Part shown: positions 7,989 through 63,220 of the stretch, piece after piece
How positions within the stretch are numbered: position 1 is the stretch's first letter
Layout of the letters: every line of letters begins with the position of its first letter
DNA from: Salisediminibacterium halotolerans
Lineage (GTDB): Bacteria; Bacillota; Bacilli; Bacillales; Salisediminibacteriaceae
Assembly (NCBI RefSeq): GCF_003814815.1
Contig: NZ_RKQQ01000003.1
Coordinates: 434,001-498,000, forward strand
Length of the DNA stretch: 64,000 nucleotides
Reading direction: 5' to 3'
Translations under genes and position numbers: made by a program
Notes under the pieces: model-generated
Databases searched by the model: none
What the model was told of the DNA's origin: nothing
Seen by the model: the letters and a program-made list of their open reading frames with translations, nothing else

Positions 7989-8023
7989 GACTTTTTGCCG
8001 AGCATTTTTTGTTGCACCAAAAA

Positions 8024-8046
8024 AAGCGTGCAGTTAACTGCACGCT
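8024..8046 (-). repeat. Terminator copy flanking element A (outer, T-run side)
   Basis: A 23-bp direct repeat, identical to 8417-8439. Its core is the palindrome GCGTGCAGTTAACTGCACGC. Read on the minus strand it is followed by TTTTTT, so this copy keeps the U-tract of the original terminator of the DMT transporter gene. Confidence 0.85.
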
Positions 8047-8416
8047 TCAGAGTGTTGACAAAGTCATGACATCGATAGAAGTCATATTAAAAGGAACGGA
8101 TGACTGCGCATCGTCCGGCTTATGTCCTGCGGGCGAGCGCCGAGCCGCTTCGGGCTGACGCCCTGCAGGGTCTCGTCTGTCTCGCTATCCCGCGGGAAAA
8201 AGCCGGGATGCTGGGTCATCCTCCTTCTTTGAATCGAGTGTATTCATCATAAAGGAAGCCGCGCATCCACTCCTCCGACGCCTCCGGGAAAGCAAGAGAC
8301 GAAGATCCGTATTTGGCGGCCTGAGGCCGCCAAATACTAGCTGAGTCCTTGCCCGGGGCAAGCGGAGGGTAGTGGCTGCGTGGCTTACGTCAAAATAATA
8401 ATTTGTCTATAAGCTG
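8047..8416 (-). mobile_element. Terminator-inserted non-coding element, copy A (370 bp)
   Basis: The shortest of three related elements in the window, in reverse orientation relative to copies B and C. Imperfect terminal inverted repeats share the TGTWGACAAA core (GTGTTGACAAAGTC at one end, TATAGACAAATT at the other). The interior has two structured modules in opposite orientation but no credible ORF or transposase. It lies between two copies of one intrinsic terminator. It lacks the roughly 60-bp segment before the right end that copies B and C carry. The module-1 hairpin has ATTTGGCGG/CCGCCAAAT where B and C have ATTCGGCGG/CCGCCGAAT, a compensated base-pair change. Confidence 0.85.
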
Positions 8417-8439
8417 AAGCGTGCAGTTAACTGCACGCT
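8417..8439 (-). repeat. Terminator copy flanking element A (gene-proximal)
   Basis: An exact 23-bp direct repeat of 8024-8046. It is the copy nearer the DMT transporter stop at 8506. On the minus strand the stem is followed by TCAGC instead of a T-run, so the insertion separated this stem from its U-tract. Confidence 0.85.
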
Positions 8440-8505
8440 CTCTTAACACGGTCAGGCATCTTCTGTTACGTTCAGCACGGTTGCTGAGGTGTGTACATGC
8501 GGTTT

Positions 8506-11974: not shown

Positions 11975-12052
11975 GCTGGAGCCGCTTCTGGAGAGACCGT
12001 TCCGCAGACGGCGCCGAAGGATTCATGATCTCAGGCAAACGGACAGAAGAAG
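11975..12052 (+). promoter_or_regulatory. Glycine riboswitch (single aptamer)
   Basis: The conserved glycine aptamer core is present in order: CTTCTGGAGAGACC, then GGCGCCGAAGGAT, then ATCTCAGGCAAACGGACAG. P1 pairs CTTCTG (11985-11990) with CAGAAG (12044-12049). I see one full aptamer rather than the usual tandem; a short GC-rich helix after it (GCAGTGCAGCTTTGCAC) could be a partner or ghost helix. An intrinsic terminator follows at 12082-12108, so glycine binding probably controls readthrough. It precedes an ACT-domain/UPF0210 gene pair, not a gcv operon. Confidence 0.88.
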
Positions 12053-12081
12053 CAGTGCAGCTTTGCACAGTTTTCTTGCGG

Positions 12082-21018: not shown

Positions 21019-21047
21019 CTAAACCGGCTGCTTTTGCAGCCGGTTTT
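21019..21047 (+). repeat. Terminator copy flanking element B (ectC side)
   Basis: A 29-bp direct repeat of 21741-21769 with one mismatch. It contains the stem ACCGGCTG / CAGCCGGT around a TTTT-containing loop, followed by TTTTAG. It is the ectC terminator with its T-run shortened by the insertion. Confidence 0.85.
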
Positions 21048-21165
21048 AGACTGTAGACAAACTATATTTTTATATCAGCCATGAATCCACTACCCTCCGC
21101 TTGCCCCGGGCAAGGACTCAGCTAGTATTCGGCGGTCTGAGGCCGCCGAATCCGGATCTTCGTCG

Positions 21166-21174
21166 CTTGCTTTC
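21166..21174. repeat. 9-bp target duplication, left of nested element
   Basis: CTTGCTTTC, repeated exactly at 21441-21449. Copies A and C have this sequence only once at the same place. Confidence 0.85.
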
Positions 21175-21440
21175 GAGGCTGCTGAAAAAGTGCTGGATAA
21201 ACAAAGTCGGCGTTTATTTATGAGCCGCATAGAATAAAGAATATTATGAGCCCTCCGCAAACTCGCTTGCCGCGGGCAACGCCTCAGCCTCCTCAGAAGC
21301 GAAATCGCTTCTTGTGGGGTCTTCGGCAGTTGCTTTTCCCGCAGGCGTCGAGTTTGCTCCAGTCTCATAAAACTTCTCAATCTATAAGGGAGAATAAATA
21401 TGCAGTCACCCAATTGATCATCTACTTTTTCAGCAGCCTC
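21175..21440. mobile_element. Nested MITE-like element inside copy B (266 bp)
   Basis: Perfect 17-bp terminal inverted repeats (GAGGCTGCTGAAAAAGT) flanked by an exact 9-bp target duplication. Copy C supplies the unoccupied site for comparison. No transposase is encoded. The interior has an outer stem GCAAACTCG / CGAGTTTGC enclosing CTTGCCGCGGGCAACG, an AGAAGCG/CGCTTCT hairpin, GGGGTCTTCGG and TTTTCCCGCAGGCGT. This layout matches module 1 of the host element although the ends are unrelated. Confidence 0.88.
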
Positions 21441-21449
21441 CTTGCTTTC
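21441..21449. repeat. 9-bp target duplication, right of nested element
   Basis: CTTGCTTTC, identical to 21166-21174. Confidence 0.85.
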
Positions 21450-21740
21450 CCGGAGGCGTCGGAGGAGTGGATGGATGGCTTCTTTTTTATGAATACACTC
21501 GTTTTGAATAAAAGAGGATGACCCAGCATCCCGGCTTTTTCCTGCGGGATAGCGAGACAGACGAGACCCTGCAGGGCATCAGCCCGAAGCGGCTCGGCGC
21601 TCGCCCGCGGACTAGTAAGACACGGCGAAGTCTTTTTGAGCCGATGTCGCAGTGATACCTTCAGGTGAAAGAAGCCGGACGATGCGTCGTCATCTGTTCT
21701 ATTTAACATGACATCTAACGATGGCATGACTTTGTCAACA

Positions 21741-21769
21741 CTAAACCGGCTGCTTTTGCAGCCAGTTTT
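21741..21769 (+). repeat. Terminator copy flanking element B (distal, T-run side)
   Basis: A 29-bp repeat of 21019-21047 with one G-to-A change in the closing stem, followed by a complete T-run (TTTTTTT). It is the downstream half of the duplicated ectC terminator. Confidence 0.85.
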
Positions 21770-43531: not shown

Positions 43532-43604
43532 GTAAATCTCTCCCTTTAAAAATACTGTGTTCATCTTACAAAATATTTTACAGATTAGCTAGCAAACTGC
43601 ATTA

Positions 43605-43628
43605 AAAAACCGCTCAGAAGAGCGGTTT
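43605..43628 (-). repeat. Terminator copy flanking element C (distal, T-run side)
   Basis: A 24-bp direct repeat, identical to 44109-44132, with the stem ACCGCTC / GAGCGGT. On the minus strand it is followed by TT, completing the U-tract of the original ohr terminator. Confidence 0.85.
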
Positions 43629-44108
43629 TCAGACTGTAGACAAACTATATTTTTATGTCAGCCATGAATCCACTACCCTCCGCTTGCTCCGGGCAAGGAC
43701 TCAGCTAGCATTCGGCGGTCTGAGGCCGCCGAATCCGGATCTTCGTCTCTTGCTTTCCCGGAGGCGTCGGAGGAGTGGATGAATGGCTTCTTTTTTATCA
43801 ATACACTCGCTTCAAAAAAGAGGATGACCCAGCATCCCGGCTTTCTCCAAGCGGCGATGGAAACACGGCGAGGTCTTGTCGAGCCGATGTTGCTCAGGTG
43901 CCTGTGGTAGATACCGAGATAGACGAGACCCTGCAGGGCATCAGCCCGAAGCGGCTCGGCGCTCGCCCGCGGACTAGTAAGACACGGCGAAGTCTTTTTG
44001 AGCCGATGTCGCAGTGGTACCTTCAGGTGAAAGAAGCCGGACGATGCGTCGTCATCCGTTCCTTTTAATTAGGACATCTAACGATGTCATGACTTTGTCA
44101 ACACTCTG
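43629..44108 (+). mobile_element. Terminator-inserted non-coding element, copy C (480 bp)
   Basis: Ends CAGACTGTAGACAAACT and (reverse complement) CAGAGTGTTGACAAAGT. Module 1 has outer arms 43660-43673 and 43774-43787 and the hairpin ATTCGGCGG / CCGCCGAAT at 43710-43734. Around module 2 it carries a roughly 42-bp internal duplication: the ACACGGCGAGGTCTTGTCGA copy near 43863 and the ACACGGCGAAGTCTTTTTGA copy near 43982. No ORF with a recognisable domain. Relative to ohr transcription it is inserted in the opposite orientation to copies A and B. Confidence 0.85.
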
Positions 44109-44132
44109 AAAACCGCTCAGAAGAGCGGTTTT
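44109..44132 (-). repeat. Terminator copy flanking element C (ohr-proximal)
   Basis: An exact 24-bp repeat of 43605-43628. Read on the minus strand it follows the ohr stop by 16 bp, with stem ACCGCTC / GAGCGGT followed by only TTTT before the element begins (CAGAG). Confidence 0.85.
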
Positions 44133-44148
44133 TTTAGTCCATTTTATT

Positions 44149-63034: not shown

Positions 63035-63220
63035 TAGAAGTGAAGGTAGAGGTGCAAAACAGATCAGTCGGTCCTTGGAGTACGGGGTAACGAAGAAGAG
63101 GATTTAAAGGCTGTTTTGCCGAAGTCTGCAGTGATCTCCATCATTGCAGGCTGGTTCCGGCATTGAACAAATCCGGAACTGTCGTCCAGCAATTGCTGAA
63201 CGAGGAGCTATCTGCTTATT
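63035..63220 (+). promoter_or_regulatory. Lysine riboswitch (L-box)
   Basis: The conserved L-box elements occur in order: AGGTAGAGGTGCAAAAC, GAAGAGGATTTAAAGGC, TTTTGCCGAAG, GCAGGCTGGTTCCGGCATTG, GGAACTGTCG and GAGGAGCTATCTG. An intrinsic terminator and dapA follow. High lysine should favour termination, reducing flow of aspartate semialdehyde into lysine and diaminopimelate. Confidence 0.93.

Follow-up and report, generated by a model that had tools for sequence, protein, structure and literature searches.

Among the described systems closest to the elements examined here, IS1272/TnSha1, a member of the IS1182 family, is reported to target hairpins or terminators, into which it has inserted repeatedly and independently in both orientations (PMC4923244). 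Insertion of IS1272 is reported to delete part of the hairpin and not to duplicate the target (PMC4923244), whereas the elements at our locus are flanked by 9-bp or terminator duplications. The transposase family (NF033551), the end sequence and the 9-bp duplication of the full-length relatives are those of IS1182, but the copies in the window (the whole 64,000-nucleotide stretch of Salisediminibacterium halotolerans DNA that was analysed) are 266-bp and ~420-480-bp derivatives that lack a transposase and carry a conserved structured module.

Several repeat families also bear comparison with this module. REP sequences, which are dispersed by an HUH tyrosine transposase (RAYT), are likewise short imperfect palindromes present in many copies and used as targets by IS110-type elements; however, they differ from the module in sequence and size, and the module is also found inside IS1182 elements. 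The stem-loop repeat families Bhal-1 (B. halodurans) and Sta-1 (S. aureus) resemble it, as compared by description alone, in being intergenic stem-loop repeats of ~74-105 bp in Bacilli (PMC2267715). The antisense strand of the module aligns to positions 129-204 of tsr24 (RF02577), an S. aureus small-RNA family whose model has 238 positions. Two separate modules match this same segment with 28.9 and 33.3 bits (E about 2e-4), which amounts to homology at the level of both sequence and structure but lies below the gathering score of 50 that marks membership. A literature search on tsr24 found no paper.

We propose, with a probability of about 0.7, that the window contains a module-bearing MITE of the IS1182 type within an IS1182-type host, that such MITEs have repeatedly targeted the host module, and that modules were exchanged between the two vehicles afterwards.

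The nested element and its host

The original prediction described a 266-bp unit inside copy B of a larger host element, bounded by perfect 17-bp inverted repeats and flanked by an exact duplication of 9 bp, and this description holds at 21175-21440. The uninterrupted site predicted for host copies A and C is likewise present, as an intact CTTGCTTTCCCGGAGGCGTCGG at 8275-8296 (minus strand, copy A) and 43749-43770 (copy C). The features of the window are as follows.

8118..8367, minus strand: host copy A, modules uninterrupted (module 1 at 8273-8367, minus; module 2 at 8118-8204, plus)
21019..21047, unstranded: intrinsic-terminator hairpin, left duplicate beside host copy B, a 97% direct repeat with 21741-21769
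21048..21740, plus strand: host copy B, carrying the nested element, with IS1182-type ends AGACTGTAGACAAA...TTTGTCAACACT
21095..21470, plus strand: host module 1 of copy B, interrupted by the nested element (21095-21174 and 21441-21470)
21166..21174, unstranded: target site duplication CTTGCTTTC, left copy, belonging to host module 1
21175..21440, plus strand: nested MITE of 266 bp, non-autonomous, bounded by perfect 17-bp inverted repeats and flanked by a target site duplication of exactly matching 9-bp copies
21175..21191, plus strand: left terminal inverted repeat GAGGCTGCTGAAAAAGT of the nested element, the same as the ends of full-length IS1182-family elements such as L088
21261..21353, plus strand: structured module within the nested element, its outer stem extending to 21244-21250 / 21364-21370
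21424..21440, minus strand: right terminal inverted repeat of the nested element
21441..21449, unstranded: target site duplication CTTGCTTTC, right copy
21533..21621, minus strand: host module 2 of copy B, in opposite orientation (65.9 bits with the covariance model)
21741..21769, unstranded: intrinsic-terminator hairpin, right duplicate beside host copy B
43678..43981, plus strand: host copy C, modules uninterrupted (module 1 at 43678-43772, plus; module 2 at 43893-43981, minus)

The nested unit has no transposase gene, as expected of a MITE, and its overlapping 107-aa open reading frame has no match in Pfam or NCBIfam. About 20 full or partial copies occur in the 2.84-Mb genome, which holds 26 occurrences of the exact 17-bp ends; all of those that were traced lie on module-bearing copies. 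The host element, which carries one inward-facing module near either end, is matched more than 100 times in the same genome. Intrinsic terminators are its insertion sites, with a full terminator hairpin (~20-30 bp) left on both sides at most of the sites examined (8020-8444, 21019-21769, 43604-44134 and L033-L060). Modules are often paired, the two facing opposite ways and separated by a few hundred bp (L221, L223, L225 and the host copies).

Kinship of both vehicles with IS1182

The nested and host elements had been predicted to have unrelated ends, which proved incorrect: 12 of 16 bases are identical, a level of agreement equalled by 69 of 200,000 shuffles, and both sets of ends are of the IS1182 type. 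In a scan of public genomes the same 17-bp ends were found in many phyla, including on full-length elements of ~1.6-1.75 kb with 9-bp duplications (L088, L173 and L192). The exact nested-type ends bound L088, whose transposase scores 296.7 bits against the curated NCBIfam cut-off of 270 bits for IS1182 (NF033551). The transposases of L207 (280 bits), L206 (451 bits) and L210 (429 bits) also exceed the cut-off. As befits a MITE, the nested element thus has the inverted repeats of a full-length insertion sequence, and the 9-bp duplication is common to it, L088, L173, L192 and L207.

The 1931-bp element L207, from the same genus as the window, has ends GAGGCCACTGAAAAAGT that are near-identical to the nested type and an exact 9-bp duplication; it carries the module internally, upstream of a transposase that is 51% identical to that of L088 and whose reading frame is interrupted. 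In the genome of the window, L206 alone was found to encode an IS1182-family transposase. Its ends and its terminator duplication match those of the host element, as expected if the host derives from IS1182, and its module is placed between a predicted promoter and the transposase gene. Independent vehicles with unrelated ends were rejected on the similarity of the ends, the anatomy of L207 and the matches above the IS1182 cut-off. Since their ends and their full-length IS1182 kin agree, the two vehicles are relatives, and both look like transposase-less derivatives of the IS1182 family. With IS1182-type ends on both and an internal module in IS1182 elements of the genus, the sharing of the module is partly a matter of common IS ancestry.

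No transposase with nested-type ends was found in the genome of the window, and a search by exact pattern in this and the other family genomes examined returned no full-length partner with the ends of the nested element. Mobilisation of the nested unit therefore stays putative, and its partner may have been lost from the genome.

Structure, spread and position of the module

A covariance model was built from ten modules, taken from nested and host elements and from others and including the nested module of the window, and recovers all modules in the window. The nested module scores 87.2 bits (model R1, E 7.9e-20; fold z -6.7) and intact host modules in the window 39-75 bits, while the interrupted module 1 of copy B scores 20.9 bits against 59-64 in its intact counterparts. 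The covariation test covered 69 modules, 65 of them distinct, drawn from ~30 genomes. Of the cells, 86% pair, and 304 show changes on both sides, where shuffles give 104 +/- 8 and slid controls 37-108; the alignment had been fitted to the model and so leans in its favour. Changes on both sides were seen in 22 of the 30 pairs of the module. The internal module predicted to be common to the nested and host elements is thus real; it is one homologous covarying structure, and chance is no explanation for the resemblance. Folding energies make the antisense strand more stable than the sense strand in 52 of the 69 modules; counts of G-U versus A-C as an indicator of strand are skewed by the GU columns of the model.

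The module is present in all 35 genomes of the family and in 40 of 200 Bacilli genomes from several orders. At least 127 copies occur in some genomes, among them one (G010) that has no DUF772 transposase match, and the number of modules does not track the number of DUF772 loci, so that many modules must lie outside recognised IS1182 elements. On annotated plasmids, matches to the module are unannotated or labelled “hypothetical protein”, and a literature search for its sequence found nothing. At the gathering score, Rfam identified no known RNA in the window other than riboswitches away from the element, namely lysine and glycine riboswitches at 63039-63218 and 11978-12056. The module is apparently an abundant structured repeat of Bacilli that has so far gone undescribed.

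This distribution raises the possibility of a REP-like repeat that is selected by the host or stands by itself and has a function of its own, e.g. at the 3′ ends of transcripts, and that IS1182 elements would have acquired only by inserting next to it. Its occurrence throughout the family and in several orders of Bacilli, its abundance in a genome without a DUF772 match, copies with no recognised vehicle (L022, L023, L025, L027), the weak homology with tsr24 and the insertion of IS110-family elements into the module, as some do into REPs, all favour such an origin. Against it, all modules found within IS1182 elements occupy fixed positions inside the IS and face inward from one of its ends; at least five of the eight modules of one genome (G032) lie in IS copies and the sole module of another (G015) lies in an IS1182 leader; and some apparently free modules have IS-type ends on inspection (L229 with an exact 9-bp duplication, L218 with similar ends). 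We regard this explanation as a serious one, at somewhat under even odds.

Among 30 DUF772 transposase loci the module was found in 17, upstream on the same strand in 14 and downstream on the opposite strand in three, with no other layout, and it was absent from the remaining 13. It is thus a recurrent component of IS1182 elements in these genomes. Each of the 14 upstream modules is situated after the IS end and before the start codon, on the strand of the transposase gene, as would be expected if the module were a leader RNA that holds transposase expression low and is conserved for that role. L206 fits such a role, in that its module follows a predicted promoter and contains stems resembling terminators; so does a second, separate inverted repeat after the module in several elements that could mask the ribosome-binding site of the transposase gene, e.g. 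AAGGATACCTTC...GGAGGTATCCTTATG (L248, L259, L261, L262, L263, L270 and L265-L267). However, the three downstream modules have the opposite orientation, the antisense strand folds better on average, and the promoter matches are matches to a consensus only, which makes a leader RNA a tentative and somewhat doubtful explanation.

The original prediction had also considered that nested-type elements lacking the module would point to chance or local recombination. Such elements do occur outside the Bacillaceae: same-end elements of 131-191 bp from Clostridia and other MAGs have no module by inspection, and in four of them none was found by model search. None was found inside the family. Taken with the DUF772 loci that have no module, these same-end elements from other phyla indicate that the module is dispensable for transposition as such.

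Targeting and exchange of the module

Twelve of the 15 complete nested copies have an exact 9-bp duplication of CTTGCTTTC at the identical site of the host module, in both orientations. A thirteenth copy at the shared site (L011) has a degraded far end, and another (L005) lies in module 2. It could be supposed that host and nested element spread jointly as one composite and that the common site of most complete nested copies reflects a single insertion. However, divergence reaches 48% among the carrier hosts but is at most 10.5% among their nested units, a Mantel test finds no correlation between the two sets of distances (r 0.08, p 0.34), and two nested units only 0.8% apart (L001 and L008) are inserted in opposite orientations. 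The same nesting also occurs in other genera, in Pseudogracilibacillus (L123, L132) and in G016 (L230). We therefore rejected composite co-amplification as very improbable: a fixed site, both orientations and uncorrelated divergences argue instead for repeated insertion. The nested MITE is shown to prefer the module hairpin at CTTGCTTTC, where it has made many independent insertions in both orientations, and this repeated targeting of one site in the host module is what is new here.

IS110-family elements also sit precisely in the module (between ..CCCGCTGGAG and TCGCCG.. in L294, L297, L309 and L312), at a point that differs from that used by the nested MITE. IS110 had been considered as a neutral control for proximity to a transposase, and was dropped because it inserts into the module itself.

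Modules do not sort by vehicle in the tree reconstructed from their sequences. A single clade for the modules of nested-type vehicles was rejected (AU p 3e-5), and so was one uniting the two host modules (p 0.0015), although paired columns are interdependent, which inflates the significance of both tests, and the alignment is of short sequences. In four host elements (L019, L021, L024 and L026) the core of the module is partly or wholly of the nested type, with joins in shared motifs, which suggests that these chimeras arose by later recombination between inner and outer modules. Of the predicted picture of one module on two different vehicles, the homology of the module and its separability from the vehicle therefore stand, but the vehicles are not unrelated, both being of the IS1182 type. 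Neither the targeting of the module nor its chimeras had been part of the original prediction.

The account that we favour combines these observations. The nested unit, with its IS1182-type ends and 9-bp target duplication, would be a MITE of the IS1182 transposase family that, having no transposase, presumably moved in trans. It would have descended by internal deletion from a full-length insertion sequence, keeping the module that in full-length relatives follows the left end and precedes the transposase gene. The host would be another non-autonomous IS1182-type derivative, whose insertion at transcription terminators leaves these duplicated. As shown above, the MITE lands by preference on the side bulge of the module hairpin, at CTTGCTTTC, in many independent events, and so places one module inside another. 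Recombination via the shared arms CTTGCCNCGGGCAA and GCTTTTCCCG could then replace or trim the outer module, a probable route to the chimeras observed. Modules would thereby pass between vehicles, and as a result modules and vehicles would sort apart. The module itself may keep transposase expression low, as an insulator or leader close to the end of the element, or may be no more than a DNA-hairpin landing site.

Extended beyond this locus, module-bearing mobile elements might prefer the same module on other elements, with recombination overwriting the outer module, so that the module would serve as cargo, landing pad and unit of exchange; insertions would be steered away from genes and modules homogenised across vehicles in Bacilli. 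We offer this more general idea as speculative, and consider it possible rather than probable. What has been found is an abundant repeat of Bacilli that is tied to IS1182 elements, and a case in which mobile elements both carry a repeat and use that same repeat as a target. The exchange of modules between transposon families becomes directly testable, and the association offers a possible explanation for a repeat that is otherwise matched only by an orphan sRNA family of S. aureus.
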